Source: Abditibacteriota bacterium (lineage in GTDB: Bacteria > Armatimonadota > UBA5829). From it: a stretch of 33,084 nt of DNA. The stretch is from the NCBI GenBank assembly GCA_017552965.1, contig JAFZNQ010000087.1:1-33084 (forward strand), read 5' to 3'. Every line of letters starts with the position of its first letter. Within the stretch, counting starts at the first letter, position 1. Under the pieces are notes generated by a model, which worked only from the letters and a program-made list of their open reading frames with translations, was not told the DNA's origin and did not search any database. Shown in pieces: positions 2,898 through 21,567 of this stretch. The position numbers and the translations under genes are program-made.

Positions 2898-4973
2898 TCA
2901 GTTCTTCTTGAAATAATAGACCAGCATGTCGGCGGACTTCAGCTCGGGTGTGGTTACCTTGAACTCCCCGGGGGCGATGGTCTGGGTGTCGATGAGATGC
3001 AGTGTCTCGTCATAGACCTCCATGGTGTAGGAGGCGGCTTCTCCGATCCAGGGGACCAGGTCGTAGTAAAGCTCCAATACTCTGGCATCGTCCCTGTTGT
3101 TCATGACAGGCATCACCACCGAATCGTCGTATATGTAGGCTCCCATGCTCACCCAGCTGGAGGCCCGGGTCTGCAGGCAGTCGGAGATAAAGGTGCCTTC
3201 GGTGAAATAAGGCATCCATTTTTCCTTGATGGCCTTGCAGTGCTTCAGGGCTGCGCCCAGGTCGGGATGGTTTTTTATCCAGTCATTGCCGTTGAAGCCC
3301 GTGGCGTAGATGTCGCCGGTGGGGTGCTCCAGCTTGCGGGGCATGGCGTTCACCAGATTGTTCACTATAAAGGTGTTTTTGGCCTTTTTGGCGTCGCCGG
3401 AGTTGTTCACGTTGATGCGGGGATACTTGAACACGCTGTTGAAGGCGTCGTAGCCGTTGTGGCCGCCCCAGTCCCAGGTGTAGTCCAGCAGATCCACGTC
3501 CAGCTCCATGCTCCACAGCTCTTCTCCGGAGAAAGAGCTGTCGGGGTCCACGGACTTGCTGCGGTCGATGAGGCGCGCAGCCAGATCAAACAGCTGCTTT
3601 TCGGGATTGTCGTTCCAGAACTGGTCCCAGCTCACGTTGGCCAGACCCGCGTCTATATATTTGGACAGGTCCTCATACACGCTTTCCTTCCAGGCGGCGC
3701 TGGCGGGGCCTACGTAAAGGGCTTCGCCCCTGTGGCTGTAGGAGGGCTGGAACTGGGGGATGGTCTCCTGTCCCTGGGTCCAGTTGTCCGGATTGCCGGT
3801 GGCGTTCCACTTTTTGGCCGACTCGGGATTCTGCAGCAGCACGCTGACGAAGGGGGTGAAGTAGCAGCCGTATTTCTCGTAGCAGTCCTTCAGGGCAAAC
3901 ATCTCCTGCTCGGTGCCCACCTGCCTGTTGATCCTCAGGGGGGTCTCAAACCAGTTTTCGGTCCAGCTCCAGGCGTTGATCTCCGTCAGGCCGTATTCGG
4001 CGGACTCCTTGGCCAGGGCGCGCATATCCTTCATGCGCCACTGGGGACTCAGCTCGTCATAGCCCCAGGCGATGGCCATCCAGATGCTGCGGATGCCCAC
4101 TGCCTCGGCGATATGCTTTGACAGGGGATAGCGGCGGTGATGCTTTTTCTGCGCGTATTCGCGGAATACCTCTATGCCCTTTGCCCAGCCGCTGGCGTGG
4201 GGAGTGAATATCCACTCGGCGCTGTCAAAGCGGGCGCCGGGCTCTATGGTCCGGGTGTTCAGCATCAGCAGGCGGGCTTCCTTTTCGGAGTTGGCCAGGT
4301 GCACCCGCACGGGGATCTGCTCGTCCCAGCCCCACAGCTTGGGGAACATGGAGATGCCGCCGCCATAGCCGCCGTAGTCCAGCCACCGGAGAGGGGCGGT
4401 GCGGAACATGCCGCCAAAGCTCATCTGGGTCTGGCCGTTGGCACCGTCCATGCAGTATTGCTGGCACTTGCGGGCTTCGTCCATCTTCAGCTCTATGAAG
4501 GGCCGCAGATAGCCGGCCGTGTGCCTCAGTATGGTGTCAAAGTCGCCCTCAAAGGGCTGCAGGCCGGCAAAGTCGGGGAATATGACCTGCTCCACCGGCT
4601 TTTCGGACTTGTTTTCCACCCTGCATCTGGCGGAAATGCTCCTGCCGTCGGGCAGGGCTTCAAATATGACGGCGGCGCTGACGTCGCCCTCGGGGGCAAA
4701 TTTGGCGCGGCTGGCTCCCAGCCGGTCCCAGCTCACAACTACCTTGTCCGCTTCCACCGAGATCTGGGCCCCCTGGGAAAAACGGGAGGCCAGGCGCAGA
4801 GGCTCGAATTCGGGCACGGGCCAGGCCACGTCTATGATGGACGCGTTGGCCGGGTCCGCCTTCAGCATGGTCTTGCCGGCGTATTCCAGGGAGAGGATGC
4901 TCCCCGTGGCTTTGTCAAAGGTCATATCAAGACCGTTCAGGTTCGCAGTGACTGTGTCTGCTTGCAGTGACAT
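2898..4973 (-). CDS. DUF6259-like glycoside hydrolase-type protein, copy 1 (signal peptide frame broken)
   Basis: This 691-residue protein reads from MSLQADTVTANLNGL and is about nine-tenths identical by eye to its neighbour at 5317-7446. An N-terminal beta-sandwich part (about 1-270) precedes a probable TIM barrel with motifs such as IRSIWMAIAWGYDE, YFTPFVSVLLQNP and SWDQFWNDNP (D450). The C terminus is probably beta-rich. This layout resembles DUF6259 proteins, thought to be related to alpha-galactosidase-type glycosidases; substrate and catalytic residues are not known to me. ATG 4973 has AGGAG 8 bases upstream, so a product starting here would stay in the cytoplasm. The expected start is TTG at 5020 with a perfect AAGGAG, but that frame hits TAA at 4990-4988, one base short in a T run. 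The body is intact, so the gene is not simply dead. It may be a recent loss of export, a slippage switch or a sequencing error. Confidence 0.75.
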   Translation of the reverse strand: MSLQADTVTANLNGLDMTFDKATGSILSLEYAGKTMLKADPANASIIDVAWPVPEFEPLRLASRFSQGAQISVEADKVVVSWDRLGASRAKFAPEGDVSAAVIFEALPDGRSISARCRVENKSEKPVEQVIFPDFAGLQPFEGDFDTILRHTAGYLRPFIELKMDEARKCQQYCMDGANGQTQMSFGGMFRTAPLRWLDYGGYGGGISMFPKLWGWDEQIPVRVHLANSEKEARLLMLNTRTIEPGARFDSAEWIFTPHASGWAKGIEVFREYAQKKHHRRYPLSKHIAEAVGIRSIWMAIAWGYDELSPQWRMKDMRALAKESAEYGLTEINAWSWTENWFETPLRINRQVGTEQEMFALKDCYEKYGCYFTPFVSVLLQNPESAKKWNATGNPDNWTQGQETIPQFQPSYSHRGEALYVGPASAAWKESVYEDLSKYIDAGLANVSWDQFWNDNPEKQLFDLAARLIDRSKSVDPDSSFSGEELWSMELDVDLLDYTWDWGGHNGYDAFNSVFKYPRINVNNSGDAKKAKNTFIVNNLVNAMPRKLEHPTGDIYATGFNGNDWIKNHPDLGAALKHCKAIKEKWMPYFTEGTFISDCLQTRASSWVSMGAYIYDDSVVMPVMNNRDDARVLELYYDLVPWIGEAASYTMEVYDETLHLIDTQTIAPGEFKVTTPELKSADMLVYYFKKN

Positions 4974-5225: not shown

Positions 5226-5260
5226 ATAGCGGGCCGCGCCTGCTCCGGCGGGCCGGGGTG

Positions 5261-5296: not shown

Positions 5297-5316
5297 TGTG
5301 TGTCCCGGGGGACTCT

Positions 5317-7446
5317 TTAGTTCTTCCTGAAACAGTAGATCAGCATGTCGGCGGACTTCAGCTCGGGTGTGGTCACCTTGAATTCGCCGGGCTGTATGGT
5401 CTGTGTGTCGATGAGATGCAGGGTCTCGTCATAGACCTCCATGGTGTAGGAGTCGGCTTCGCCGATCCAGGGGACCAGGTCATAGTAAAGCTCCAGTATT
5501 CTGGGGTCTTCCCGGTTGTTCATGACGGGCATGACCACGGAGTCGTTGTAGATATAGGCGCCCATGCTCACCCAGCTGGAGGCCCGGGTCTGCAGGCAGT
5601 CGCTTATAAAGGTGCCTTCGGTGAAATAAGGCATCCACTTGTCCTTGATGGCCTTGCAGTGCTTCAGGGCTGCGCCCAGGTCGGGATGGTTTTTCATCCA
5701 GTCGTTGCCGTTGAGGCCGGTGGCGTAGATGTTGCCGGAGGGGTGCTCCAGCTTGCGGGGCATGGCGTTCACCAGGTTGTTCATGATAAAGGTGTTTTTG
5801 GCCTTTTTGGCGTCGCCGGAGTTGTTCACGTTGATGCGGGGATACTTGAACACGCTGTTGAAGGCGTCATAGCCGTTGTGGCCGCCCCAGTCCCAGGTGT
5901 AGTCCAGCAGCTCCACGTCAAACTCCATGGTCCACAGCTCTTCGCCGGAGAAGGAGCTGTCGGGGTCCACGGACTTGCTGCGGTCGATAATGCGCCGGGC
6001 CAGGTCAAACATCTGCTTGTCCGGGTTGTCATTCCAGAACTGGTCCCAGCTCACGTTGGCCAGGCCCGCGTCGATATATTTGGACAGGTCTTCGTACACG
6101 CTGTCCTTCCAGGCGGCGCTGGCGGGGCCTACGTAGAGGGCTTCGCCCGCGTGGCTGTAGGAGGGCTGGAACTGGGGGATAGTCTCCTGTCCCTGGGTCC
6201 AGTTGTCCGGGTTGCCGGTGGCGTTCCACTTTTTGGCCGACTCCGGGTTTTGCAGCAGCACGCTGACGAAGGGGGTGAAGTAGCAGCCGTATTTTTCGTA
6301 GCAGTCCTTCAGGGCAAACATATCCTTCTCGGTGCCCACCTGTCTGTTGATGCGTATGGGAGTTTCGAAGCAGGTCTCGGTCCAGCCCCAGGCGTTGATC
6401 TCGGTCAAGCCGTATTCGGCGGACTCTTTGGCCAGGGCGGGCATATCCTTTATCCGCCACTGGGCGTCCATTTCGTCAAAGCCCCAGCCGGTGGCCATCC
6501 AGATGCTGCGGAAGCCCACGGCCTCGGCGATATGCTTGGCCAGGGGATACTTGCGGTGGTGCTTCTTCTGCGCAAATTCTCTGAATACCTCGATGCCCTT
6601 CGCCCAGCCGCTGGTGTGGGGGGTGAGCACCCACTCGGCGCTGACGAAGCTTGCGCCGGGCTCTATGGTCTGTGTATTCAGCATCAAGAGGCGGGCTTCC
6701 TTTTCCGAGTCGGCCAGATGCACGCGGACGGGGATCTGGGCGTCCCAGCCCCACAGTTTGGGGAACATGGAGATGCCGCCGCCGTAGCCGCCGTAGTCCA
6801 GCCATCTCAGAGGGGCGGTGCGGAACATGCCGCCGAAGCTGAACTGGGTCTGGCTGTTGGCGCCGTCCATGCAGTACTGGGTGGACTTGCGCCCTTCGTC
6901 CATCTTCAGCTCGATAAAGGGCCGCAGATAGCCGGCGGTGTGCTTCAGTATGGTGTCAAAGTCGCCCTCAAAGGGCTGCAGTCCGGCAAAGTCGGGGAAT
7001 ATGACCTGCTCTACGGGCTTTTCGGACTTGTTGTCCACCTTGCACACGGCGGAGATGCTTCTGCCGTCGGGCAGGGCTTCAAAGATGACGGCGGCGCTGA
7101 CGTCGCCCTCGGGGGCAAATTTGGCGCGGCTGGCTCCCAGCCGGTCCCAGCTCACCACCACCTTGCCCTCGGTCACGGAGATCTGGGCTCCCTCGGAAAA
7201 ACGGGAGGCCAGCCTCAGAGGCTCAAACTCGGGTATGGGGTAAGCCACGTCTATGATGGACGCATTGGCGGGGTCTGCCTTCAGGATGGTCTTGCCCGCA
7301 TATTCCATGGCGAGAATGCTGCCGGTGGCCTTGTCAAAGGTCATCTCAAGACCGTTCAGGTTCGCAGTGACTGTGTCTGCTTGCAGTGACATTGAAAATG
7401 CTCCTATAAAAATAAAGATAATACACAACAAAAGGCTTGGTTTCAA
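5317..7446 (-). CDS. Secreted DUF6259-like glycoside hydrolase-type protein, copy 2
   Basis: This is the intact tandem paralogue of the gene at 2898-4973, 709 residues from the chosen TTG start (7446-7444). The first residues, MKPSLLLCIIFIFIGAFS followed by MSLQA, form a textbook signal peptide with probable cleavage after A23. TTG is chosen because GGAG lies 6 bases upstream and the copy-1 equivalent has a perfect AAGGAG there. ATG 7458 and ATG 7392 (with its own AGGAG) are alternatives. After the signal come a beta-sandwich, a probable TIM barrel (FRSIWMATGWGFDE, SWDQFWNDNP with D468) and a C-terminal beta domain, as in DUF6259 families related to alpha-galactosidases. It probably hydrolyses a carbohydrate outside the cytoplasm, but no substrate can be named. 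It is transcribed alone, divergently from the glycosidase at 7619. Confidence 0.8.
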   Translation of the reverse strand: MKPSLLLCIIFIFIGAFSMSLQADTVTANLNGLEMTFDKATGSILAMEYAGKTILKADPANASIIDVAYPIPEFEPLRLASRFSEGAQISVTEGKVVVSWDRLGASRAKFAPEGDVSAAVIFEALPDGRSISAVCKVDNKSEKPVEQVIFPDFAGLQPFEGDFDTILKHTAGYLRPFIELKMDEGRKSTQYCMDGANSQTQFSFGGMFRTAPLRWLDYGGYGGGISMFPKLWGWDAQIPVRVHLADSEKEARLLMLNTQTIEPGASFVSAEWVLTPHTSGWAKGIEVFREFAQKKHHRKYPLAKHIAEAVGFRSIWMATGWGFDEMDAQWRIKDMPALAKESAEYGLTEINAWGWTETCFETPIRINRQVGTEKDMFALKDCYEKYGCYFTPFVSVLLQNPESAKKWNATGNPDNWTQGQETIPQFQPSYSHAGEALYVGPASAAWKDSVYEDLSKYIDAGLANVSWDQFWNDNPDKQMFDLARRIIDRSKSVDPDSSFSGEELWTMEFDVELLDYTWDWGGHNGYDAFNSVFKYPRINVNNSGDAKKAKNTFIMNNLVNAMPRKLEHPSGNIYATGLNGNDWMKNHPDLGAALKHCKAIKDKWMPYFTEGTFISDCLQTRASSWVSMGAYIYNDSVVMPVMNNREDPRILELYYDLVPWIGEADSYTMEVYDETLHLIDTQTIQPGEFKVTTPELKSADMLIYCFRKN

Positions 7447-7471
7447 GTTTTGCTCCATGCTATAAGAATAT

Positions 7472-7501
7472 TGACCCGCGGGGGTCACTTTCATTATAGC
7501 A
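7472..7501 (-). promoter_or_regulatory. Extended -10 promoter and perfect dyad of DUF6259-like copy 2
   Basis: Minus strand TGC-TATAAT (TGC 7501-7499, TATAAT 7498-7493) is an extended -10 without a recognisable -35. Five bases downstream is the perfect inverted repeat TGACCC-CCGC-GGGTCA (7487-7472). The same element with two changed stem bases sits at the same place in copy 1. Confidence 0.7.
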
Positions 7502-7562
7502 AATAAAGGCCGCCGGCGGCCCTTCTTCCGCAAAAAAACACAAAAAATGCTCTCCGGCCTCA

Positions 7563-7591
7563 TTGACAAAAAGCTCCGGATAGGGTATATT
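7563..7591 (+). promoter_or_regulatory. Promoter of the GH42-like operon
   Basis: TTGACA (7563-7568), a 17-base spacer and TATATT (7586-7591). The short leader leads to ATCGGGGAG, 7-8 bases before ATG 7619. Confidence 0.88.
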
Positions 7592-7618
7592 GATGATGAA
7601 TACATCGGGGAGTCCCTT

Positions 7619-9799
7619 ATGAAAGCTATTTTGATCGCGGCGGCCCTGCTGCTGCTGGCCGCCGCCTCCTTCGGACAGGACTTCGTCCCGGAGACCGTGG
7701 ACGAGGACGGCGAATACGTGACGGCGGACAAAGCCGGCCGGCGGGCCGTGGCGCTGGCCGACAAGCCGGGCATGCGGTATCTGTATTACAGACTGACGGA
7801 CAGAAGCGCCGTGCCCGCAGAGCCCGCCCTGGCCATAGAATACTACGCCGACACCCCCTGTGGGGTGGACGTGCAGTACAATTCTTCCAACGGCGACCAT
7901 TTCACCGGAGCCGGCTTTACCTGCCGGGAGGGGGAGTGGACCCGGGTCACGGTGCCCTTGCCCCGCTTTGAGCCCCGCGGCGCCATGCACGAGGGCTGCG
8001 ACGTGAGGCTGGTCATCAACGACTGGCGCTTCGACAGCTTTATGCCCAAAAACCGGGTCTTTATAAGCTCCGTCACTCTCACGGAAAACAAGGGAAAGCC
8101 GGAGCCGGTCCGGCCCCTCTATGAATTCCGCCGGCCTCAGGGCGCGGAATACGTGATGGGCAACGACCTGTCCTATGCCAAGGCTCCCGTTTACAGGCGG
8201 CAGAAGGTGGACGTGGTCCAGAGCTATATCACCTGGGGCGGCATAGAAAAGAGCACCGGCGAATACGACTGGACCTACTGGGACAGGCAGGCGGAGCTCC
8301 TGAGAGAGTGGGGCTTCAAGCTGCAGGCCTTTATAGCGGCCGGCCCTTCCTGCGCCACTCCGGCCTGGTATCTGGCTTCCCCGGAGCACGTGGGGGCTGT
8401 GTGCCTGGAGCACGGCGAGGAGACCAAGATAGAGAGCGTGTGGAACACGGCCATCGACAGCCACATCCGGAGCTTTTTGGAGGCCTTTTACGCGAGATAC
8501 AGGGACATACTCTACAGCGTGGAATTCGGCATCTCGGGAGACTTCGGCGAGACCATCTACCCTTACTGGGGCGTGCCCTGGACCTTCGCCGTCAACGGGG
8601 ACTATCACACCCATCCGGGCTACTGGTGCGGAGACCCTCTGGCCCGCAGGGATTTTGCCGCGTCCATGCAGAAAAAATACGGCTCCGTCTCCCGGCTGAA
8701 CGCCGCCTGGCACACGGACTTTGCCTCCTTTGACGAGGAGCTGATGCCCTTTGAGGACGAGAAGAGCAAGGACGCCTATTTTGACGCCCTCACTCCCGAG
8801 ACCCGGCGCAGATGGTATGACCTGGTGGACTGGTACCGTGACAGTATGGAGCGGCTGGCCTCAAGGTGGCTGGACATATCCGACGGCATATTCACAGACA
8901 CTCCCGTCTATCTGGCGGTGGGAGGCCATTCCTCCCCGGAGCAGGGCTGCCTGTTCTCCCACATAGCCAAGCTGGCGGCGCAGCGCGGAGCCGGGGTGAG
9001 GATCACCAACGAGATGTCCGAATACACCTTCAACGTGACCGGCAACCGCTATATGTCCGACTCGTGCCGTCTCTACGGAGCCCCCTGCGGCTTTGAGCCA
9101 GGGGACAAGGTGGACGTGAACGGCGTGACCGCCAGGGTCTTCGGAGCGGCCACCTGCGGCGTGAAGCAGTACTTTGACTTTGACCACAACGGCCTGGCCT
9201 CGCAGGAGTATATGGACAGGCAGCTGGAGCTGCTGCCCTATCTGAACAAGGGCTACAAGCCCATAAGGAACGTGGCTCTGTGGTATCCCGACAGGGACCT
9301 CTCTCTGTATCTGGACCTGGGCGCCTACATGTCCCGGACCATACCCCTCATGCGCAATATGGCAGACGTCACCATAGCCGATTCGCAGACTGTCTCGGAC
9401 GGCATCCTGGAGGGCATGTCTGTCCTGGTGCTGTGGAACGCCACGGTGTTTGAGGAGGAAGACCTGCGGAACATAGGCCGCTTTGTCCGTGAGGGCGGAC
9501 GGGTGTTCGCTCTGGACTGCAAGTCGCCTGTCACGGTCTCCGGCCGGCCGGCAGAGATACCGGGCCTTACCGTGGTGCCGGACTTTGCCGCCCTGCAACA
9601 GGCGGTAAACCGGGTCCTCGAAGAGCGGGGAGAGTGCAGATACCCCTGCGTGAAGAACGTGTTTGTCAGCCGGGTGGGCCCCCGCAAGGCCCTGGTGTTC
9701 AACCAAAACGGCTTTGAGGCGTCGGTGCAGATCACCATGGAGGGCAAGACCAAGCTCTGCTCCGTGCCCGCCCACGACATGAAGGAATTCGAATTCTAA
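7619..9799 (+). CDS. Secreted GH42/GH14-like glycoside hydrolase
   Basis: The protein has 726 residues from ATG 7619, which has GGGGAG upstream. It opens with a clear signal peptide, MKAILIAAALLLLAAASFG. A beta-sandwich segment (about 25-170) is followed by a TIM barrel beginning PLYEFRRPQGAEYVMGN. VVQSYITWGGIEKSTGEYDW is typical of clan GH-A beta-galactosidase-like enzymes. EFGISGDFGETIYPYWG (E311) resembles the acid/base loop of GH14/GH42 enzymes, and RITNEMSEY (E465) is a plausible nucleophile site. Residues about 550-690 look like the flavodoxin-like trimerisation domain of GH42 (VALWYPDRDLSLYL, VLVLWNATVFEEEDL, VREGGRVFALD). It probably releases sugars from an external oligosaccharide. 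It heads an operon with two sugar-type oxidoreductases (next start 17 bases on). Exact family and substrate are uncertain. Confidence 0.8.
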   Translation: MKAILIAAALLLLAAASFGQDFVPETVDEDGEYVTADKAGRRAVALADKPGMRYLYYRLTDRSAVPAEPALAIEYYADTPCGVDVQYNSSNGDHFTGAGFTCREGEWTRVTVPLPRFEPRGAMHEGCDVRLVINDWRFDSFMPKNRVFISSVTLTENKGKPEPVRPLYEFRRPQGAEYVMGNDLSYAKAPVYRRQKVDVVQSYITWGGIEKSTGEYDWTYWDRQAELLREWGFKLQAFIAAGPSCATPAWYLASPEHVGAVCLEHGEETKIESVWNTAIDSHIRSFLEAFYARYRDILYSVEFGISGDFGETIYPYWGVPWTFAVNGDYHTHPGYWCGDPLARRDFAASMQKKYGSVSRLNAAWHTDFASFDEELMPFEDEKSKDAYFDALTPETRRRWYDLVDWYRDSMERLASRWLDISDGIFTDTPVYLAVGGHSSPEQGCLFSHIAKLAAQRGAGVRITNEMSEYTFNVTGNRYMSDSCRLYGAPCGFEPGDKVDVNGVTARVFGAATCGVKQYFDFDHNGLASQEYMDRQLELLPYLNKGYKPIRNVALWYPDRDLSLYLDLGAYMSRTIPLMRNMADVTIADSQTVSDGILEGMSVLVLWNATVFEEEDLRNIGRFVREGGRVFALDCKSPVTVSGRPAEIPGLTVVPDFAALQQAVNRVLEERGECRYPCVKNVFVSRVGPRKALVFNQNGFEASVQITMEGKTKLCSVPAHDMKEFEF

Positions 9800-9816
9800 A
9801 AGGAACAAGGTATATT

Positions 9817-10842
9817 ATGAGAGTAAACAGTGTGTTTGTCAAAAGCCCGTTCAACTACGAGCTGCGAAACGTGGAGCTGCCCGCCCTCAAGGCGGACGAG
9901 GCTCTGGTGGAGATCATAGCCTGCGGCATATGCGGCTATGACATGGAGATATCGGCCTGCCTGTCCCCCAACGGCTACACCGCCCTGGGCCACGAATACG
10001 TGGGCGTGGTGCGCGAGGTGGGCGGCGCCGTGGACAACGTGAAGCCCGGCGACCGGGTGACGGCGGAGTCCTCCACCTTTTGCGGAGTGTGCGACGACTG
10101 CCGCAACGAGCGCGTGGACCTGTGCCGCAATCTGAAGACCAGCTCCAACGGCTACGCCCAGGGCTTTGCCGAAATGACGGTGGTGCCCGCCAGGAGCCTG
10201 GTGGTGTGCAACGACATAGACCCCCTGACCGCCGTGCTGAGCGAGCCTGCCGGCGTGTCCTTTGACCTGGTAAAGACCGCCGAGGTGCAGATCACCGACG
10301 ACGTGCTGATAGTGGGCATGGGCCCCATCGGCTTTATGGCCCTGCAGATAGCCCGCAAGATCACTGCCGGCCGCGTGGCGGTGGTGGACCGCCACGAAAA
10401 CAGGCGGCAGATGGCCATGGATTCGGGAGCCGACGTGGCCTACGCAAGCATTGACGACATGCCCTCGGAGGAGACCTTTGGCAAGATATTGCTGACGGCT
10501 GTCCCCCAGCTGCTGCCCGCCTGCATCCTCAGGGCCCGCTACGGCGGCTATATAGCCTTTTTGGGCAGCAATTTCAGGGACGGCAACACGGTGCCTCTGG
10601 ACACGGGCATCATACATTTCAACAGGCTGCAGCTCAGGAGCTCCTTTGCTTCGCCGGCCACCTTCTTCCCCTGGGTGCACAAGCTCATGCGGGCGGGGGT
10701 CATAGACGGCAGCAGGATAGTGACGGGCGTGTACAAGCTGAGCAACTACAAGGCGGCCTTTGACAAGCTCAGGAGCGACAAGGACCACGCCATGAAGGTG
10801 GTGGTGGTAAACGACAATTCGGGTATCGAGGAGAAGATATGA
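9817..10842 (+). CDS. Zinc-dependent medium-chain alcohol/polyol dehydrogenase
   Basis: This 341-residue protein belongs to the sorbitol/threonine dehydrogenase branch of the MDR superfamily, which oxidises a secondary alcohol of a sugar or polyol with NAD. The catalytic zinc ligands are visible as C37 (ACGICGYD), H59-E60 (GHEYVG) and probably E143 (SEPAGV). Structural zinc cysteines are C89, C92, C95 and C103. The Rossmann motif is GMGPIG (167-172), and D191 at the end of beta-2 favours NAD over NADP. There is no signal peptide, so it acts in the cytoplasm. AAGGAACAAGG precedes ATG 9817. It lies 17 bases after the secreted glycosidase and overlaps the next gene, suggesting it processes the released sugar. 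The substrate is not predictable from sequence. Confidence 0.88.
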   Translation: MRVNSVFVKSPFNYELRNVELPALKADEALVEIIACGICGYDMEISACLSPNGYTALGHEYVGVVREVGGAVDNVKPGDRVTAESSTFCGVCDDCRNERVDLCRNLKTSSNGYAQGFAEMTVVPARSLVVCNDIDPLTAVLSEPAGVSFDLVKTAEVQITDDVLIVGMGPIGFMALQIARKITAGRVAVVDRHENRRQMAMDSGADVAYASIDDMPSEETFGKILLTAVPQLLPACILRARYGGYIAFLGSNFRDGNTVPLDTGIIHFNRLQLRSSFASPATFFPWVHKLMRAGVIDGSRIVTGVYKLSNYKAAFDKLRSDKDHAMKVVVVNDNSGIEEKI

Positions 10843-11900
10843 TGAAAGCAGGAGTTATTGGCTGCGGGACTATCTCAAAGTTCCACGTTGACGGATTCAG
10901 GGAAGCCGGCTGCGAGCTGGGCTGGTTTTGCGACATAGACCCGGCGAGATCCGGGGCCTATCAGGCCTTGTATCCCGGCTCAAAGACTACCGCGGACTAC
11001 AGAGACGTGCTGGCGGACCCGGAGGTGTCTGTGGTGGCGGTGTGCACCCTCACCAGTCTGCACAACGAGGTGGTGAAGGCAGCCATCGCGGCAGGCAAGG
11101 CCGTGATATGCGAGAAGACCCTGGGCATGAACGCCGCCGACGCTCTGGACATGTGCCTTTTTGCCGAGGAAAAGAAGGCCTTTTTGTCCACGGGCTACAT
11201 GAAGCGCTTTTTCCCGGCCGTGCAAAAGGCGGAGGAGCTGCTGAAGGGCAGAAGGATAGTGTCGGTGTATGCCAAGACCTACCAGCCCTTCCCGGGCCTC
11301 TATCTGGGAGACCCCTCTCAGCAAAAGGCCACCGGTGATTTTCTCCGGGACTATATGGGCGGAGGCGTGGTAGTGTGCGGCGGCAGCCACATCATGGACC
11401 TGCTGCACTTCTTCTGCGGACTGCCCACGGCCTGCGCCGGTCAGCTGGATACGGTCCCCGGCAGCGACGACTTTGACAGAGACGCCAACGCCCTCTTCTG
11501 GTTTGAAAACGGAGCCGTGGCCCACTTCGAAGCCTACTGGCACGAATACGCCAAGGGCGGCTTTGAGCAAAACGGCTGGGATGAGGAGATACGCATCAAC
11601 ACCCCGGACGGCGCCGTGATAGTGAAGACCCCTCTGTGGCACAAGCCGGAAAACAATGCGGCCCGGGTCTCCTGGCTGGACGCCGTGACCGGCGAATACA
11701 CCGAATACAGATACGAGGCGGTGAACTCCTTCACCCTCCACGAGATAGAAGAAGTGAAGCGCGTCGCCGAGGGCAAGGCCCCTGCGGTGGACGGCTGGGA
11801 CGGCTACGTGGCCGACGTGATGATAGACGCGGTCAAGCTGGCTTCCCGCACCGGCGACAAGGTGCAGATCGCCTTTGACAAGGCCATGCCCCGGAAATAG
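10839..11900 (+). CDS. Gfo/Idh/MocA-family oxidoreductase
   Basis: This 353-residue NAD(P)-dependent oxidoreductase belongs to the glucose-fructose oxidoreductase/inositol dehydrogenase family. The Rossmann motif GVIGCGTIS lies at 5-13. The family's EKP motif appears as EKTLG with catalytic-type K93. The second-domain motif is GGSHIMDLLH (H184, D187, H190). Members oxidise or epimerise sugars, inositols or sugar acids in the cytoplasm. The start overlaps the previous stop (ATGATG at 10839-10844, stop 10840-10842), so translation is coupled. Either ATG is possible, with a one-residue difference. With the dehydrogenase at 9817 it suggests a two-step oxidation of the sugar released by the upstream enzyme; that pathway is inference. 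Confidence 0.88.
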   Translation: MMKAGVIGCGTISKFHVDGFREAGCELGWFCDIDPARSGAYQALYPGSKTTADYRDVLADPEVSVVAVCTLTSLHNEVVKAAIAAGKAVICEKTLGMNAADALDMCLFAEEKKAFLSTGYMKRFFPAVQKAEELLKGRRIVSVYAKTYQPFPGLYLGDPSQQKATGDFLRDYMGGGVVVCGGSHIMDLLHFFCGLPTACAGQLDTVPGSDDFDRDANALFWFENGAVAHFEAYWHEYAKGGFEQNGWDEEIRINTPDGAVIVKTPLWHKPENNAARVSWLDAVTGEYTEYRYEAVNSFTLHEIEEVKRVAEGKAPAVDGWDGYVADVMIDAVKLASRTGDKVQIAFDKAMPRK

Positions 11901-11915
11901 GCAGCCGATAACACA

Positions 11916-11951
11916 GCCCCGCAGGCGCTTGCAGCAAAGCGCCTGCGGGGC
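11916..11951 (+). terminator. Hairpin ending the GH42-like operon
   Basis: A perfect 15-bp stem (GCCCCGCAGGCGCTT 11916-11930 with 11937-11951) has loop GCAGCA and lies 15 bases after the stop. Only TT follows, so it is a weak intrinsic terminator or an RNA-stabilising hairpin. Confidence 0.6.
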
Positions 11952-11989
11952 TTGCAGCAATGAGCGCCATTTCGGCGGTCAGTCTGCAA

Positions 11990-12045
11990 GTCATTTCGGC
12001 GGTGAGCGCAAGCGAAACCGGTAAGAGATCCCCTGTAACGGAAGG
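11990..12045 (-). repeat. Intergenic stem-loop repeat, copy D (reverse orientation)
   Basis: Read on the minus strand it has CCTTCCGTTACAGGGGATCTC then TTACC, a variable core (GGTTTCGCTTGCGCTCACC) and GCCGAAATGAC. This matches the arms of copies A and B. A second half copy of the right arm (ATTTCGGCGGT on the plus strand) lies next to it at 11969-11979. Confidence 0.72.
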
Positions 12046-12080
12046 ACAGGCCCTCCGGGGGAGGTCGGGCGGCTGATTTG

Positions 12081-12106
12081 CCCCCGCAGAAGGGCTGCGG
12101 GGGGCC
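12081..12106. other. GC-rich hairpin upstream of the 12.1-kb promoter
   Basis: CCCCCGCAG (12081-12089) can pair with CTGCGGGGG (12095-12103) around an AAGGG loop. It sits about 25 bases before the -10 box and could be a leftover terminator. Its role is unknown. Confidence 0.4.
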
Positions 12107-12123
12107 CAAAGCCCCGGGTTTTG

Positions 12124-12132
12124 TGGTATAAT
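12124..12132 (+). promoter_or_regulatory. Extended -10 promoter of the second glycosidase operon
   Basis: TGG-TATAAT is an extended -10. The region 17 bases upstream (GCCCAA) is not a -35 box. The same TGn-TATAAT style is used by the two DUF6259-like genes. Confidence 0.7.
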
Positions 12133-12167
12133 AAAGAGGAACTCATTTGAATAATATCGGGGGACTT

Positions 12168-15100
12168 ATGAAGGCAGTCTTGATACTTATGCTCCTGCTT
12201 ATGTGCGGGACCTGGTGCCTGGCCGCTCCTGCGGCGCGGGAAGAAAAGGGCAATATCGTGCTGGACAACGGCAAGTGCCGCATCGTGCTGGACCGGCAGG
12301 CCCGGTTCGTCAGAGGCGAAAACGGCCCTCTTGCCGGCTCCTGGTTTGACGTGACTCTGGAGGACCGCAAGGGCTTTTTGCCCTGGGAATACTGGCAGGA
12401 GGGCTCCGTCAGCTCCTTTGCGGGTGACTCTTCCGCCGAGGTCAGGCTCTCTCAGGACAAAACAGCGGCCGCGGCCGAATTCGTCTTCCGGCCGGCGGGC
12501 ATGGAGATCACCGCCCGGGTCAGACTGGACAGCGACGCCGAGGGCGGCCGCTATTCGGTGACAGCCAAGGCTCTGGACGAGACTTCGCTGGTGGACATCA
12601 TCGACTTTACCCTGTCGGACATGACCGTGCCCGAGGGCTGGTTCCTGTTTCCGGAGACGCTGGGCATGCGTATCAGGCCCGGGGTCTTTGAGCCCGGTGA
12701 CCGCAAGACCGCTCCCTATCCCGGCTTTATGTATATGCAGTGGCTGGACCTCTTCAATGACGAGGGCGGCGTGTATATGGGCTGCGAGGACGGCTACGGC
12801 TACACCAAAAAGATGTATGTGGGGAGGAGCGATGAAGGCCGCGAGCTCATGGGCTTTTCCTTCACAGGCTGCTGGGTGGCCGAAAAGGGGGATAGCTGGA
12901 CTACTCCCGACGTATATATAGTGTCCCACAAGGGGGACTGGAGAAAGGGCGCCGACCTCTACCGGCCCTTTGCCCGGCAGGCCTTCGGCAATCTGCAGAC
13001 CCCCAACCATATCCTGGAAATGCCCGCCTCCAACTGCTGGCTGCAGCATCATCTGTCCAATGCCGACGTGTGGAAGCTCTTCGAGATCCACGCCTCCGCG
13101 CCCATACATGCCAGCTACCTGAGCAAGACCGTGAATACCTCCATTCCCGAGGGCTGGGACGGCATTTTCGGCAGCGGTCTGGAATTCAGCGAGACCTTCG
13201 AAAACATCAAGCGGCTGGGAGGCTACACTGCCCTCTTCACCTTTGACAGGGCGCCGCTGATGGGCAAGCCCAACTTTGCCGACTATGCCCAGAAATGGGC
13301 TAACGTCAAGCGCAGCGGCGTGTGGGAGGAGGCCTTCATAGACATGATGCCCTCCGCCTTTGACAAGGATTTCCGCAAGCAGCGCGTGGACGAGGCGGTC
13401 CGCTGGGTAAAGGACTTCGGTCTGGACGAGATACACTACGACACAGAGGGCACCAGCGGCGACAGCCCCACCGTGGGCACCGGTATGGCCGGGGGCCCCT
13501 GCTACCGCAGCGATATAGGCGCCCGTCCCAACGAGACGCCCCACTACTTCAAGCTCCTTTACCGGGAGACCGTGGAGGCCTGCCGCAAGCTGAACCCCGA
13601 CTTCACCATCAGGGCGGAGCACTGCGCCGACTTTTTCTATCCCGAGTTCGGCCATTCCACGGCCCACTTCTATTACAGCTGCAACGATGAGGCCGAGCGG
13701 GCAGGCTGGAAGCCCGGCAAGGATTATTATCTCATGCCCGAGGTTTTCCGCTATACTCTGCCCGAATTCGCCCAGGTGCAGATGCCCTCTGTCTCCAACT
13801 CCGAATACTGGATGTACGCCTACGGCATGGGCCACGGTTTCCACGGAGGGGGCTCCAACTGCACCTTTGACGTGAAGATACGCGACGCCGAGGAGGGCAG
13901 CCTGGGCGGCCGCTACAACTACTACAACACCGACTGGTTCCGCTACTATGACTGGCGCGTGGGCTTCTGGGAAGCCACTCTGGAGTGCCGGCAGATGGAC
14001 ACGGAGGTCTATGCCGATCTGGGCAGGGGCTGGCAGTACGCCGGCCTGGAATGCGACGTGAACGCCGTAAGCCACCTGGGCAAAAACCGGCAGGTGGTGC
14101 TGGGCGAGCTGCGGCCCTATGAGATGTCTTCGAGCCATTATATCAGCTACGTGAAGGAATTCGGCACCGATATGACTCTGCGGCCCTTCCGCATCAAGTT
14201 CCCGGTACGTATTCCCGGCGCGTCCTACTATCTCTACACCCCCACCGGCTCAAAGGAGATCAAGCCGGAGATCCGGGACGGGGAGGCTGTGGTCTCCATA
14301 GAAAACACCCGCCTCTTTGCCATTGAGGCAGTGGCCGGGCCTTCAGTGAGGCTGATAATGCCCCGCAAGGCGGCCATTACCGGCCGGGAAGCGGAGATAA
14401 CCGTGGCCTATGCCAACGCCAAAGCGGGGAGCCTGTCCGTGGTCCTGCCCGAAGGCTGGGAAAAGCCGGGGAAGATATCCATACCCGCCGGAACAGGGGA
14501 GAAAACCTTCAGGGTGAAGGTGCCCGAAGGGCTCTTCGGCCGCAACTATCCCGTGAAGGCCGTATATACCGCCGGCGGCGCAAAGCTCACCTGCGCCGGA
14601 CACCTGGCGGTGGCGGAGCCCTGGAGCGTGGGCTATTATTTCACCGACGCCGACGGCCGGGACGTGCTCACCCAGGGCAAGAGAGCCTATCTGAAGGTGG
14701 TGGTGGTGAACAATCAGCCCGACAGCCACAAGGCGGAGGTCTTCGTCACCGGAGGAGCCGGCGACTTTGACGACTCGGCGGAACTGGAGGGCGTACCCCT
14801 TGACGTTCTTACCGCCGAGAAGTCGGAGCTGAAGGAATGGCTGAACAAGGCAAGGCCCGGCTTTGAGCCCGGCTGCGCCATGGCCTTTGAATGGTCCTTC
14901 GAAGTGAAGGGGCCCCTGGCGGAGCCCGTCCATATCAGCGTCAGGGCCGACGGCAAGGAGATACTGGCCGAGGACTGCTTCCCCCGGGTGCAGGTCATGG
15001 ATCTGAACGGCGAATGGAAGCTCTTCCCCCAGCCCCGCCACCGGTCCAATCACGCCGGCGTGGAGGGAGTGGACGCGCTGGATCTCTTCTACGCCACCGA

Positions 15101-15917
15101 GGACTGCTTTGACGGCAACTGGGAGACCATCGAGACTCCCTTTGTCCCCAAGGAGCGTCCCGACGCATACTGGACCTATTACAGAAAGATGGTGTATATC
15201 CCCGCCGAATGGCAGGGGGCCGACCTGTATCTGAAGGTGGGGGCTCTCGGCGCCCCCTGGCAGCACGGCACTCTCAACCTGTGCTACGTGAACAGCTATC
15301 CCTGCGGCCGCCTGCGCTACAACGGTGAGGTGAAGCTGAATACCTGGCTGAAATACGGCTCCTGGAACCTGATCACTATATGCTCCCTCTCTGCCAACAG
15401 GCTGGAGGATCCCGTTATAGTGTGCAAGCGGGCTCCCGTTCCCGACAGGCTGAAGGAAGCGGCCAATCCCGCCATAGACGGCATGTTCCTGCAGCTGGGC
15501 AGCACCACCTTCGGCTACGGCTTGTCCAGAGGGCCCATCAGGGGCCACGACATGGCTGACGGCCTGCACCTGCTGGCCAAGGATATAGGCGAACAGAACT
15601 ACTGCTACGTGAGCGTAGCCGACGAATACGCCTATGAAGTGGACGGGGACTACGAGGTGACGGTGGAATACCTGGCCCGGGGAGGCGAGTTCACGGTGGA
15701 ATACGACTCCCACGACCCGGAGGGCATACTTGACGGCACCTTTACCATGGCCGGCAAGGTGTCCTTTGCCGATACAGGCAAATGGGAGATCTCCACGGTG
15801 ACGCTGCCCGGGGCCCGCTTTGCCAACCGTATGTTCGGAGCGGACTTCCGCATAGGCCGCACCAAGGGCGACGAGCTGGTCATAAGAAAGGTGAGCATCA
15901 GGAAGAAAGGGGAATAG
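12168..15917 (+). CDS. Large secreted multidomain glycoside hydrolase-type protein, 1249 aa
   Basis: A signal peptide (MKAVLILMLLLMCGTWCLAA) is followed by a beta-sandwich start (GNIVLDNGKCRIVLDRQARF). This resembles the opening of the two DUF6259-like proteins. Next is a probable TIM barrel (about 290-610) with LDEIHYDTEGT (D425, E427), FTIRAEHCADFF and VSNSEYWMYAYGMGHG, where acidic residues could be catalytic. Beta-rich accessory modules follow. An Ig-like stretch (about 720-960) precedes a segment like the sugar-binding domain of GH2 enzymes (YWTYYRKMVYIPAEWQGADL), and a carbohydrate-binding-like sandwich forms the C terminus. ATG 12168 has GGGGG 4 bases upstream. TTG 12147, 21 bases upstream with AGAGGA at 6 bases, is equally credible and adds seven residues. 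It heads an operon with a transporter (6-base gap). The fold is a reasonable guess and the substrate unknown. Confidence 0.75.
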   Translation: MKAVLILMLLLMCGTWCLAAPAAREEKGNIVLDNGKCRIVLDRQARFVRGENGPLAGSWFDVTLEDRKGFLPWEYWQEGSVSSFAGDSSAEVRLSQDKTAAAAEFVFRPAGMEITARVRLDSDAEGGRYSVTAKALDETSLVDIIDFTLSDMTVPEGWFLFPETLGMRIRPGVFEPGDRKTAPYPGFMYMQWLDLFNDEGGVYMGCEDGYGYTKKMYVGRSDEGRELMGFSFTGCWVAEKGDSWTTPDVYIVSHKGDWRKGADLYRPFARQAFGNLQTPNHILEMPASNCWLQHHLSNADVWKLFEIHASAPIHASYLSKTVNTSIPEGWDGIFGSGLEFSETFENIKRLGGYTALFTFDRAPLMGKPNFADYAQKWANVKRSGVWEEAFIDMMPSAFDKDFRKQRVDEAVRWVKDFGLDEIHYDTEGTSGDSPTVGTGMAGGPCYRSDIGARPNETPHYFKLLYRETVEACRKLNPDFTIRAEHCADFFYPEFGHSTAHFYYSCNDEAERAGWKPGKDYYLMPEVFRYTLPEFAQVQMPSVSNSEYWMYAYGMGHGFHGGGSNCTFDVKIRDAEEGSLGGRYNYYNTDWFRYYDWRVGFWEATLECRQMDTEVYADLGRGWQYAGLECDVNAVSHLGKNRQVVLGELRPYEMSSSHYISYVKEFGTDMTLRPFRIKFPVRIPGASYYLYTPTGSKEIKPEIRDGEAVVSIENTRLFAIEAVAGPSVRLIMPRKAAITGREAEITVAYANAKAGSLSVVLPEGWEKPGKISIPAGTGEKTFRVKVPEGLFGRNYPVKAVYTAGGAKLTCAGHLAVAEPWSVGYYFTDADGRDVLTQGKRAYLKVVVVNNQPDSHKAEVFVTGGAGDFDDSAELEGVPLDVLTAEKSELKEWLNKARPGFEPGCAMAFEWSFEVKGPLAEPVHISVRADGKEILAEDCFPRVQVMDLNGEWKLFPQPRHRSNHAGVEGVDALDLFYATEDCFDGNWETIETPFVPKERPDAYWTYYRKMVYIPAEWQGADLYLKVGALGAPWQHGTLNLCYVNSYPCGRLRYNGEVKLNTWLKYGSWNLITICSLSANRLEDPVIVCKRAPVPDRLKEAANPAIDGMFLQLGSTTFGYGLSRGPIRGHDMADGLHLLAKDIGEQNYCYVSVADEYAYEVDGDYEVTVEYLARGGEFTVEYDSHDPEGILDGTFTMAGKVSFADTGKWEISTVTLPGARFANRMFGADFRIGRTKGDELVIRKVSIRKKGE

Positions 15918-15923
15918 ATCCTA

Positions 15924-16823
15924 TTGAGTGAAAACCTGATTAACGGCCTGATACTGACACTGGCCGTGTTCATGGGCTGCGCCTATTACGTGGCCATGAA
16001 GCCCGTGAATATGAGGGTGGCCCACGAGTCCCATATACCCCTGTTCAACGCCCTGTTTTCCGCGGTGGGCGTATTGCTGCTCCTGGCATATTCCCTGTGG
16101 ACGAACACGGGGCTGTATCTGCCCCCTGCCGGCATAGGCGCCGCGGCGGGCTACGGCGTCATCGCCACTCTGGCGGTGTTTGCCCATATGAAGGCCCTGG
16201 AGCGGGGACCCGTGTCCCTCACCTCCCTGTTTGCCAAGTTTTGCCTGGTGCTGCCTCTGGGGTATTCCTTTTTGTTTTTGCATGAGCAGGCGACCCTCTT
16301 CAGGGTGTCGGGCATCCTGCTGATATGCGTGTGCATAGTGATCTTTGCCGATCCCCGCAAAGGGGACAGGGAAAGGCTCTCCCGGGGCTGGCTGGCGGCG
16401 GCTCTGTCGCTGATGGTATGTAATGGCGCGGTGCAGCTCATAGGCAAGATATACGCCATGAGCTCCGCCAACGAATATCAGAATGCCTTTCTCCTGTGGG
16501 CCTTCGGCTTTGAGACCCTGGCGGCGCTGGCCATATTTCTGCGCCTGTCCCGGGGCAAAAGCCGGGAGTGCGCCCGGGCCTTTGTGACCCCGGCAGTGCT
16601 GGGCCTTTCGGTCTTTATAGCCGTGGCGGCCCTCAGCATGAATTTTGCCATAGTGGCCCTGGCCACCCGGATGGACGGCTCGGTGTTTTTCCCCATCTAT
16701 TCGGGAGGGCCCCTCATACTCATAGCCCTGGCGGGCTACCTGATATTCAGAGAGGAAATGACCTTCCGAAAGGTGACGGGCATCCTCCTGGGCATCGGAG
16801 CTATAGTGCTCCTGAATCTGTGA
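15924..16823 (+). CDS. EamA/DMT-superfamily membrane transporter
   Basis: The 299-residue hydrophobic protein has about ten transmembrane segments in two repeated halves, the drug/metabolite transporter (EamA) layout. A short soluble loop (FADPRKGDRERLSR) separates the halves. The second half ends with the typical GYLIFREEMTFRKVTGILLG pattern (acidic residue before the last helix). Members export or import small metabolites, some of them sugars or amino acids, across the cytoplasmic membrane. The start is TTG 15924 with AAGGGGAA upstream at about 9 bases; no ATG or GTG fits better. It lies 6 bases after a secreted glycosidase and 4 before another secreted protein. It may move a product of those enzymes, but substrate and direction are unknown. 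Confidence 0.85.
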   Translation: MSENLINGLILTLAVFMGCAYYVAMKPVNMRVAHESHIPLFNALFSAVGVLLLLAYSLWTNTGLYLPPAGIGAAAGYGVIATLAVFAHMKALERGPVSLTSLFAKFCLVLPLGYSFLFLHEQATLFRVSGILLICVCIVIFADPRKGDRERLSRGWLAAALSLMVCNGAVQLIGKIYAMSSANEYQNAFLLWAFGFETLAALAIFLRLSRGKSRECARAFVTPAVLGLSVFIAVAALSMNFAIVALATRMDGSVFFPIYSGGPLILIALAGYLIFREEMTFRKVTGILLGIGAIVLLNL

Positions 16824-16827
16824 AGCT

Positions 16828-18846
16828 ATGATCAAAAAGACTATTCTTGCATTTTTGCTCCTGGCGGCCCTTATCCCGGCCGCGGCCGACGTGTACGACT
16901 TTGACGGCTCCATGACCGAAGCCTGCCTCCGGGCCTATCTGGCCCGGGCCGCCGGCTGGAACGGCATATGCTGCCTGGGCCAGGAGTTCCCCGAGAAATA
17001 TCACGATGACAGCCTCAGGGCGGTGGCCAACGTCAAGCCCATGTATATCAGCCGGGCAGTGCTGGCCTGGGAGACCCCCAAGGACCCGGAGGCCCATTTC
17101 AAAAGGGCGGCGGACAGCGCCGCCGAGCTCCACGCCATAGACAGCCGCATCCTGCTGGAGGCGGCCATATTCGAAGCGGTGTACAGCCTGGAGGACGGTC
17201 CTGACGTGGACCGGATACCCATACCCGCCCGGGTGTTCGAGGCCTTTGGCCTGCCGGCAGAGGACAGATGCTTCCGCTACGAGGACATGCTGTTTCCCGA
17301 CGGCAGATACAGGGACTACTGGGGCAAGGGCATTTCCGTGCCCGACATTACCCGCACGGAGACCCGGATGTGGGAGTATTACCGGGCCTGCCGGTATATA
17401 GACGCCGGCTATGAAGCCATCAATTTCGGCGCGGTGGAGCTGACGGGAGTGGACGACACGGGCCTGGAAGCCCGGGCCCAGGTGCTCTCCCTGGTGAGAG
17501 CCTACGGCAGGCAGCATGCCCGCCGGCACTGCGTGCTGTGCACCGGCCACCTGAAGGCGGGCTCCGCCCTCAGGGACGGACGGCTGCTATGGGACCTGGC
17601 GGAGTTTCCACTCCGACTGGTGACAGGCACGGAGCCCATCACCGCTTCCATTCAGCCGGGCCACAGAGACGCCACCTACGGTACTCTCCCCGGTGGGCAG
17701 CACCCCATGGGCTGGCAGACGGCGGCTCTGCCCTGCCTCTACGAGTTTGACAACTATCTCTCCGGCATAGACGCCCGGAATATCTACGCCGTGTGGGGCA
17801 CCGACGAGACCAGCTGGTTTGCGAGCTGCAAGCCGGGCTACAGGAACTATTTTCTCAAATACGCGGCGGACCGCATCAGCCGCATCACGGTGAACGGCTT
17901 TCTCATGATGCCCTGCGGCAGGCCCTGCCGGGTGCCTCTCGTGAAGCCGCAGCAATACGTATATCTGTGCAACGAGCCCTCCGAGGCCTGTCCCATAGGA
18001 GGCGGCCAGGAGGACACCATCAAGGCCCTCTTCGAGCGCCGCTACGACCTGGCTCCCGCTCCCGCCCTCAGGGAGCCGGACAAGCGGGAGAGGGGAGAGC
18101 AGCTGGGCTTTGACCCCATGGACGGCGGCATAGGGGAGCGGCTGTTCCGCAAGGCGGAGTCTTACACGGCGCCCAACTATACCAACGGCTATATCAAAGA
18201 CGTGTTTGACGTCTACGGAGTATCGCCCGCCCCCGAGAAGCCCGCCGATTTTGTCCCCGGGCCAAAGCAGGCCGGCATCAGCCCGGCGGGGCTGGCCCTG
18301 GACGGGCCCACTGTGGAGGTCAGGAGCTTTCCGGAGATATCCGGGGGCTCTCTCACGGTGTATGCGGCCTTTATGCTGTCGCCGGAGGTCTGGGAGGATT
18401 CGTTTATGCTGCTGGAAAAGTATTCCTTTATGAAGAGCGGGTGGTACGTGAAGTATTACAAGCCCGAGGACAGCCTGTATGCGGAGATATTTGACGGCAG
18501 CGGCGAGCGCAGGACCGTGGACTTTCCCGTCCCCCGGGACGGCGGGCTCCACCGCATCTGCTTTGTGTGCGACGGCAAGCGCCTGTCCGCCTATCTGGAC
18601 GGGGCCCTCGCGGACAAGACGCCGGCGGGCAGCATAGTCCCCGACGCCACCAACCTGATCCTGTCCGGGGGCCTCGCGGGCACCCTGTCCGATATCAGGA
18701 TATACAACTACGCCCTGTCCCAAAGAGACGCGGAGAGGCTCAGCTCCGGCCTGATGGAGGAGGAGCCCGAGGAGGAGCCGGATCTGGTGATCTTCGGCGA
18801 GATACGCCGCCGGGGCCGGGGCTTCGGCATCAGTATAGGCTTTTAG
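16828..18846 (+). CDS. Secreted protein with unassigned catalytic-like region and C-terminal LamG-like domain
   Basis: The 672-residue protein starts at ATG 16828, four bases after the transporter stop. The signal peptide MIKKTILAFLLLAALIPAAA is clear. Residues about 25-460 form a globular region whose motifs (YEAINFGAVELTGVDDTG, VLCTGHL, NIYAVWGTDETSWFA) suggest a TIM barrel of glycosidase type; I cannot place it in a named family. Residues about 487-637 look like a LamG/concanavalin-type sandwich (SLTVYAAFMLSP, GWYVKYYKPEDSLYAEIFDG, LHRICFVCDGKRLSAYLDG, LSDIRIYNYALS), a common carbohydrate-binding module. A short acidic stretch (LMEEEPEEEPD) and a basic tail follow. As last gene of the operon with the large glycosidase and the transporter, a role in binding or cutting the same glycan is likely but unproven. 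Confidence 0.75.
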   Translation: MIKKTILAFLLLAALIPAAADVYDFDGSMTEACLRAYLARAAGWNGICCLGQEFPEKYHDDSLRAVANVKPMYISRAVLAWETPKDPEAHFKRAADSAAELHAIDSRILLEAAIFEAVYSLEDGPDVDRIPIPARVFEAFGLPAEDRCFRYEDMLFPDGRYRDYWGKGISVPDITRTETRMWEYYRACRYIDAGYEAINFGAVELTGVDDTGLEARAQVLSLVRAYGRQHARRHCVLCTGHLKAGSALRDGRLLWDLAEFPLRLVTGTEPITASIQPGHRDATYGTLPGGQHPMGWQTAALPCLYEFDNYLSGIDARNIYAVWGTDETSWFASCKPGYRNYFLKYAADRISRITVNGFLMMPCGRPCRVPLVKPQQYVYLCNEPSEACPIGGGQEDTIKALFERRYDLAPAPALREPDKRERGEQLGFDPMDGGIGERLFRKAESYTAPNYTNGYIKDVFDVYGVSPAPEKPADFVPGPKQAGISPAGLALDGPTVEVRSFPEISGGSLTVYAAFMLSPEVWEDSFMLLEKYSFMKSGWYVKYYKPEDSLYAEIFDGSGERRTVDFPVPRDGGLHRICFVCDGKRLSAYLDGALADKTPAGSIVPDATNLILSGGLAGTLSDIRIYNYALSQRDAERLSSGLMEEEPEEEPDLVIFGEIRRRGRGFGISIGF

Positions 18847-18883
18847 AAAAAAAAGGCGGCCCTGAGGGGCCGCTTTATTTTAT
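18847..18883. terminator. Bidirectional terminator between the glycosidase and cobalamin operons
   Basis: GCGGCCC (18856-18862) pairs with GGGCCGC (18867-18873) around TGAG. A run of A precedes it and TTTATTTTA follows, so it can end both convergent operons. The minus-strand gene ends inside it, at 18875. Confidence 0.85.
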
Positions 18884-19237
18884 CCTCTGTCCGATGCCGG
18901 CGGTGACCCGGTACACCCGGTCGGCTCTGGCCGCCAGCAGGCAGCAGAGCCTGCCGGTCACGTCCCGCCACAGCCGGTTTTCCGGCTCTGCGGGCACCAC
19001 GCCGCAGCCCAGCTGGTCGCAGACGAACACCGTGTCCGGGTGCCGGTCCGCAAAGGCCAGCAGCTCTGCCTCCGGGTCTCTCTTCTCCGCCAGGGCCTGC
19101 CGGACCCAGCTCTGCAGATTGTATATCACGGGCTTGGGCGTCAGCTCTCCGTCCGCCGCGCTGTCCGGCGTCAGGCCGTGAAGGGTCAGGGCGAACTGCA
19201 GCTTGCCCTGGCTCCTGCCCCCTATGATGAGCTCCAT
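18875..19237 (-). CDS. Short CobU-family protein (second copy in operon)
   Basis: The 120-residue protein begins MELIIGGRSQGK, a P-loop like the CobU GGxxxGK. It ends with the CobU C-terminal signature in recognisable form, VFVCDQLGCGVVPAEP...LWRDVTGRL and VYRVTAGIGQRIK. CobU (adenosylcobinamide kinase and guanylyltransferase) usually has about 170-180 residues. This one lacks the middle, including the HRxRR segment with the guanylylated histidine, so it may keep only part of the activity or be a partner of the full-length CobU at 20024. It is the last gene of the cobalamin operon, ten bases after cobS, with GAGAAGA before the ATG. Similar short versions are, to my recollection, common beside cobS in anaerobes. 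Confidence 0.75.
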   Translation of the reverse strand: MELIIGGRSQGKLQFALTLHGLTPDSAADGELTPKPVIYNLQSWVRQALAEKRDPEAELLAFADRHPDTVFVCDQLGCGVVPAEPENRLWRDVTGRLCCLLAARADRVYRVTAGIGQRIK

Positions 19238-19247
19238 ATTTTTCTTC

Positions 19248-21556: not shown

Positions 21557-21567
21557 AAGCGTGTCCT

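Follow-up and report, generated by a model that had tools for sequence, protein, structure and literature searches.

What could a carrier of the EamA family be doing between the genes of two exported, glycosidase-like proteins? This question is raised by a contig of Abditibacteriota bacterium (GCA_017552965.1, contig JAFZNQ010000087.1), whose whole stretch of 33,084 nucleotides was analysed and is called the window; it is contig C87 of an assembly of 2.78 Mb in 138 contigs. The three genes, here named P1, EamA (also P0002) and P3, had been predicted to form an operon of a giant multidomain glycosidase, an EamA transporter and a LamG-tailed secreted protein. G000 denotes the window genome, G002 a sister species and G001 a third genome, all of one genus. 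We consider it well supported that the trio is a carbohydrate-related operon, in view of the DUF6259-type barrel of P1, the glycosidase-type TIM barrel with LamG of P3, and the flanking GH42-like, alcohol dehydrogenase and Gfo genes. We also believe, with somewhat more confidence than doubt, that it is one operon scavenging a sugar or glycoside in the rumen by cleavage outside the cytoplasm, uptake and then oxidation. P1 and P3 would be exported and would both cut one glycan or glycoside, P3 being held to the substrate by its LamG lectin fold and P1 bearing binding modules. The EamA carrier would bring the mono- or disaccharide that they release through the inner membrane, and the neighbouring Gfo/Idh and zinc dehydrogenases would then probably oxidise the released sugar. 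Cleavage is read from folds and homology, uptake from context and the RhaT precedent, and oxidation from the neighbourhood only; enzyme activity, substrate, transport direction and the link to the oxidoreductases are what we infer from them.

The reading of the open reading frames (ORFs) confirmed the three genes at their predicted places, with gaps of 6 bases between P1 and EamA and 4 bases between EamA and P3 (Table 1). An extended -10 promoter element, TGGTATAAT, is located 36 bases 5' of P1, and the sister species has an exact copy ahead of its own P1 gene (about L040:5905-5913). Between the preceding Gfo/Idh gene and this promoter there is a perfect inverted repeat, and the corresponding gap of the sister species holds a hairpin with a T run, read directly, which closes the Gfo/Idh gene. 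Because 8 terminator-like sites were found in the stretch against 6.5 expected, the argument from the terminator-like stem after the trio rests on its position and not on the count. The promoter site, the hairpin or inverted repeat upstream and the stem behind therefore indicate that the trio is most likely its own transcription unit. The motif TGNTATAAT occurred five times in the window (5067, 7493, 12124, 14137 and 24327) against 0.14 expected. Four of these sites are close 5' of called genes, the one at 14137 is within P1 on the opposite strand, and the motif is possibly a common promoter form of the window genome.

In the sister species, one 6-kb contig carried all three genes without a change of order, the gaps being 6 and 5 bases. 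The protein identities to the window were 95% for P1 (last 994 residues), 80% for EamA and 65% for P3. Because order, tight spacing and promoter site are all kept, the arrangement exceeds chance, and the original claim that the genes act together is borne out within the genus but not outside it. No match to P1, EamA or P3 was found in G001 at E <= 0.001. Among 291 genomes of the phylum, full-length P1 relatives (>1000 bits) were present in 8, counting G000 and G002, and the P3 alignment matched 28, covering the N-terminal domain in 22 and the LamG part only in 6 (rows read by hand). A search of 84,980 species genomes for close relatives of P1 returned 4 loci, all from Armatimonadetes or Abditibacteriota, and the closest named relative found was the yak-rumen metagenome-assembled genome (MAG) Abditibacteriota bacterium RGIG10284. 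When the three proteins were compared by tblastn with 36 relative loci, P1 was found in 8, EamA in 2 and P3 in 26 (one of them weak), and none of the 36 held more than one trio gene; as several contigs measure no more than 3-9 kb, a neighbour could lie past the contig end. No second trio was found outside the genus. P1 relatives occurred without the other two genes in 6 other genomes, and relatives of P1 and of P3 stand singly elsewhere in the Armatimonadota. The trio as a widespread system was rejected on these 36 loci, and its distribution suggests an assembly specific to the lineage, restricted to one genus within the range searched. The search for the trio proposed beforehand recovered it in the sister species, but elsewhere it gave largely the scattered orthologues that had been named as the result speaking against the idea.

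The close EamA type (>500 bits) was found in G000 and G002 only, with two genes each, and the next match among the 291 phylum genomes reached 87 bits. This restriction, together with P1 and P3 families lacking EamA at all other loci examined, would suit a carrier that moves an unrelated metabolite and was placed between the enzyme genes by chance operon assembly in the genus. We consider such a passenger unlikely, because the gene order has persisted in two species despite the divergence of P3 to 65%, and the other gene of this type likewise lies in a cluster of putative glycosidases.

Two contigs of G002, C218 and C247 (L088 and L087), overlap within P1, where they share 128 of 131 residues and 370 of 393 bases (23 bases differ); either strain variation within the MAG or a second copy may account for this. 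As the overlap is imperfect, the upstream genes of the sister species can be placed next to its trio only tentatively. In L088, 195 of the first 255 residues of P1 are identical to the window, a stretch more divergent than the remainder. G001 is without the trio, yet its DUF6259 matches number 14 and those of the window genome 4, which speaks for a fast turnover of putative glycosidases inside this genus.

The N-termini of P1 and P3 both resemble signal peptides (judged by eye). The Pfam model DUF6259 (PF19773) gave no P1 row at E <= 1, P1 had no useful match in NCBIfam or in a sequence search of solved structures, and a DUF6259 protein used as query of solved structures also gave none. The alignment of P1 (A3) comprised 11 proteins, including one remote DUF6259 protein added on purpose. 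At E <= 1, NPCBM_assoc was matched by 9 of them, DUF6259 by 4 and Glyco_hydro_2_N by 2, the best DUF6259 match (2e-27) being that added protein. When 10 P1-family proteins were aligned by hhalign with the frames of 25 DUF6259 loci, the probability was 99.0 in local mode (query columns 23-497) and 99.8 in global mode. By this profile comparison, P1 is a divergent member of the DUF6259-related superfamily over its sandwich and barrel. D425 (HYDTEG) and E484 (RAEHCADF) are invariant across the 11 proteins and fall on Asp and Glu in the DUF6259 alignment, which makes them a candidate catalytic pair. GH66 enzymes use an Asp/Glu catalytic pair, and the tie of the P1 family to GH66 is one remote member's sub-threshold score only. 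At profile positions about 942-1063, the P1 profile also matched PDB entries of GH2 sugar-binding domains (E 1e-5). A module formed by the last 110 residues of P1 is found again at the C-terminus of proteins of about 500-2900 amino acids (aa) from many Armatimonadota genomes. Except for one chance-like row (E 0.54) it matched no Pfam family, and it may be a module for binding or sorting that is not yet catalogued. A relation between P1 and P3 was rejected (hhalign probability 0.1).

The modelling check proposed earlier was run on P3. Pfam confirmed the LamG tail, with Laminin_G_3 (PF13385) at residues 529-633 scoring 30.4 bits against a cut-off of 27.6. The N-terminal domain matched no Pfam family and nothing in NCBIfam, and neither P3 nor its alignment had a useful match by sequence among solved structures. 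The model of the whole protein had a pLDDT of 79.8 and its fold search was filled by the LamG fold; the N-terminal domain modelled alone reached a pLDDT of 89.2 and a pTM of 0.91. The top Foldseek matches of this domain were GH36 and GH27 galactosidase-type enzymes, GH114, GH168 and others (E 2e-5 to 9e-4, query TM-scores about 0.27-0.47). Among the 50 matches listed, 48 were titled glycosidases or related carbohydrate-active TIM-barrel enzymes, and the remaining 2 were chains of one unnamed protein from Planctomycetota. VIA aligned 255-308 residues with GH13, GH5, GH168 and other GH families at Z 15-17, a root-mean-square deviation of about 4 A and 6-17% identity, the families being tied within 2 Z units and several of them within about 1 Z unit. 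The predicted fold is clearly of the glycosidase-type TIM-barrel class, with no single GH family singled out. Because of the low identity, the large deviation and the many tied families, the likeness to GH168, GH36/27, GH13 and GH5 hydrolases is fold kinship only.

No known function was found for any member of the P3 family, the name DUF6259 stands for proteins of unknown function, and we found no publication using it. These points would allow P1, P3 or both to be binding proteins that lack catalysis, or TIM-barrel enzymes of another kind, such as lyases or epimerases, and not glycosidases. We regard this as very unlikely, because the proteins closest to P3 in fold are carbohydrate-active enzymes, seven acids (E116, D173, E178, E196, D256, E306 and D308, P3 numbering) are kept in all 23 aligned members of its family, and P1 keeps its Asp and Glu. 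P3 as a toxin was rejected as well, since its match to a clostridial neurotoxin binding domain is the LamG region (model residues 399-626); a GH43 arabinanase matched the same region, which is a common lectin-type jelly roll. At its C-terminus (window about 18760-18843), P3 has an acidic linker and a tail ending GFGI.IGF. They are kept in the sister species and missing from two LamG-bearing paralogues (L085 and L091), and a third paralogue (L084) is cut by its contig end.

The carrier matched EamA (PF00892) at E 4e-11, with 43.7 bits against a gathering threshold of 28.2. Its Pfam rows at E <= 1 were EamA, Multi_Drug_Res and PUNUT only, no RhaT-type model was matched at that level, and solved structures gave no useful match by sequence. 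The original prediction took a DMT carrier between two secreted enzymes as an unusual layout for glycan utilisation. A DMT carrier next to sugar-catabolic genes has a precedent, since RhaT, the L-rhamnose symporter, is a sugar importer of the DMT superfamily (PMC3870299).

The weak SMR-like matches besides EamA, the exported appearance of P1 and P3, the 65% identity of P3 between sister species, which fits a variable surface glycan, and the inclusion of nucleotide-sugar transporters among DMT proteins (PMC3111387) could also point to envelope building. In that case EamA would carry a sugar of lipid-linked or nucleotide type outward, like some carriers of the SMR/DMT type, and the cell's own surface polysaccharide would be trimmed or remodelled by P1 and P3. 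This seems rather improbable to us, because the scan of window ORFs showed no glycosyltransferase, polymerase or lipid-carrier gene, the trio is neighboured by GH42-like, dehydrogenase and Gfo/Idh genes, and the carrier paralogue lies beside a xylose-isomerase-like gene and putative glycosidases.

This one close paralogue of the carrier in the genome (G000:C22, 39-40% identity) follows the xylose-isomerase-like gene by 5 bases, with a Gfo/Idh gene and three GxGYxYP putative glycosidases beside it. Similarly, two Gfo/Idh genes and a GxGYxYP protein lie near the P1 paralogue of C40, and on C36 a Gfo/Idh gene precedes a P3 paralogue. A Gfo/Idh gene was present within 5 kb in 4 of the 6 loci with relatives of P1, P3 or EamA, C51 and C74 being the others; a rough binomial bound for this is 0.0012, calculated post hoc and ignoring contig ends. 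The trio itself sits within a wider island at about 2898-18846, whose GH42/GH14-like, zinc dehydrogenase, Gfo/Idh and tandem DUF6259-like genes had been overlooked. The tandem DUF6259-like proteins A and B have a 45% paralogue at G000:C136 (L093). An inositol pathway is not claimed, as the IolG/IolM-like scores of the Gfo and dehydrogenase neighbours were far below cut-off. A keto-glycoside route is conceivable.

Table 1. Features of the trio, its proteins and its neighbourhood (window positions unless residues are given).
Feature	Position	Strand	Remarks
P1	12168..15917	+	secreted, 1249 aa, DUF6259-like putative glycosidase
EamA-family (DMT superfamily) inner-membrane carrier	15924..16823	+	299 aa, TTG start
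P3	16828..18846	+	secreted, 672 aa, TIM-barrel N-domain, LamG and C-terminal tail
Extended -10 promoter element of trio, TGGTATAAT	12124..12132	+	exact match
Intrinsic-terminator-like stem after trio	18853..18876	+	
13-bp perfect inverted repeat	11916..11951	none	between Gfo/Idh gene and trio promoter; read directly
P1 beta-sandwich and TIM barrel	residues about 26-735		hhalign against DUF6259 proteins
P1 NEW3-like module	residues 749-799		Pfam per alignment member
P1 GH2-N-like jelly roll	residues about 965-1090		profile matches to PDB GH2 sugar-binding domains
P1 C-terminal module	residues about 1137-1247 (window about 15576-15908)		recurrence in phylum proteins
P3 N-terminal TIM-barrel domain	residues about 21-405		AlphaFold2; without Pfam/NCBIfam family
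P3 LamG	residues about 490-645		predicted fold and Laminin_G_3
Gfo/Idh/MocA oxidoreductase	10839..11900	+	PF01408, E 5e-19
Zinc-dependent alcohol/polyol dehydrogenase	9817..10842	+	PF08240/PF00107
GH14/GH42-like putative secreted glycosidase	7547..9799	+	PF01373 and PF02449 above cut-off
DUF6259-like protein B	5317..7344	-	675 aa from called start; 90% identical to tandem copy; P1 similarity via paralogue L093
DUF6259-like protein A	2898..4925	-	675 aa from called start; tandem copy of protein B

Several results weigh against the scavenging operon that we favour. The P1 sequence passes no Pfam glycosidase model and shows NPCBM_assoc at a sub-threshold level only; of the predicted giant multidomain glycosidase, a DUF6259-type barrel with added modules stands by profile homology. 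P1 and P3 relatives elsewhere occur without each other and without EamA, so neither protein needs the carrier. The trio has its own promoter, and a hairpin lies between it and the Gfo and dehydrogenase genes, which makes the link to the dehydrogenases looser. The genome has 20 Gfo/Idh and 16 GxGYxYP matches, so chance neighbours of these kinds are common. Because DME-family relatives of EamA may mainly export (PMC3924187), import is in our analysis the weakest link.

Among known systems, P1 shares with DUF6259 proteins a beta-sandwich followed by a TIM barrel over about 445-650 alignable columns, but it escapes their Pfam model and adds NEW3-like, GH2-N-like and C-terminal modules. GxGYxYP-centred putative polysaccharide loci (PMC4071793) resemble the trio in that a lone secondary carrier accompanies putative glycosidases. 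One locus described there has an MFS transporter among GxGYxYP genes, whereas the trio carrier is EamA/DMT and the window has no GxGYxYP gene, in contrast to the three at the carrier-paralogue locus. In L-rhamnose regulons with RhaT, a DMT-superfamily carrier likewise supplies a sugar-catabolic operon (PMC3870299); unlike it, the trio carrier matches EamA and no model of the RhaT type, and its surroundings showed no rhamnose genes. In contrast to a Bacteroidetes-type polysaccharide utilization locus, the window ORFs scanned gave no Pfam match for a SusC/SusD pair, in agreement with the original prediction; other contigs were not searched for SusC/D. The predicted lack of a sugar ABC transporter also stood, the sole ABC system seen among these ORFs being of the FecCD/periplasmic-binding type beside cobalamin genes.

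The locus had further been proposed as an undescribed carbohydrate system. A carbohydrate role is likely and the barrel family of P3 is without assignment, but the claim shrinks to a lineage-specific variant, because orthologues are scattered outside the genus and a DMT sugar carrier has a precedent in RhaT. We hold it as a tentative and rather doubtful idea that the N-terminal domain of P3 founds a new glycoside hydrolase family, joined in a rumen genus with a DUF6259-type enzyme and EamA as a minimal cut-and-import system without SusCD or an ABC transporter.

Elsewhere in the window, a cobalamin set (18875-24201, minus strand) comprises CobS, CobU, DBI_PRT and the FecCD/periplasmic-binding ABC transporter, with a second, shorter CobU-like ORF at 18875-19237 on the minus strand. 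A BspA-type leucine-rich repeat protein lies at 452-2362 on the minus strand (LRR_5, E 2e-160).

Little is known of the uncultured Abditibacteriota of ruminants, and no helpful paper was met on them in the rumen, on Armatimonad glycoside hydrolases, or on EamA together with glycoside hydrolases or polysaccharide utilization loci. DUF6259 is expanded in their phylum (40 of 61 genomes), and for these widespread proteins no published function was found. A three-gene operon with its own carrier is compact enough to be expressed and may reveal its substrate, enzyme and transporter together, and P3 is a candidate new enzyme family whose conserved acids are suited to mutation.

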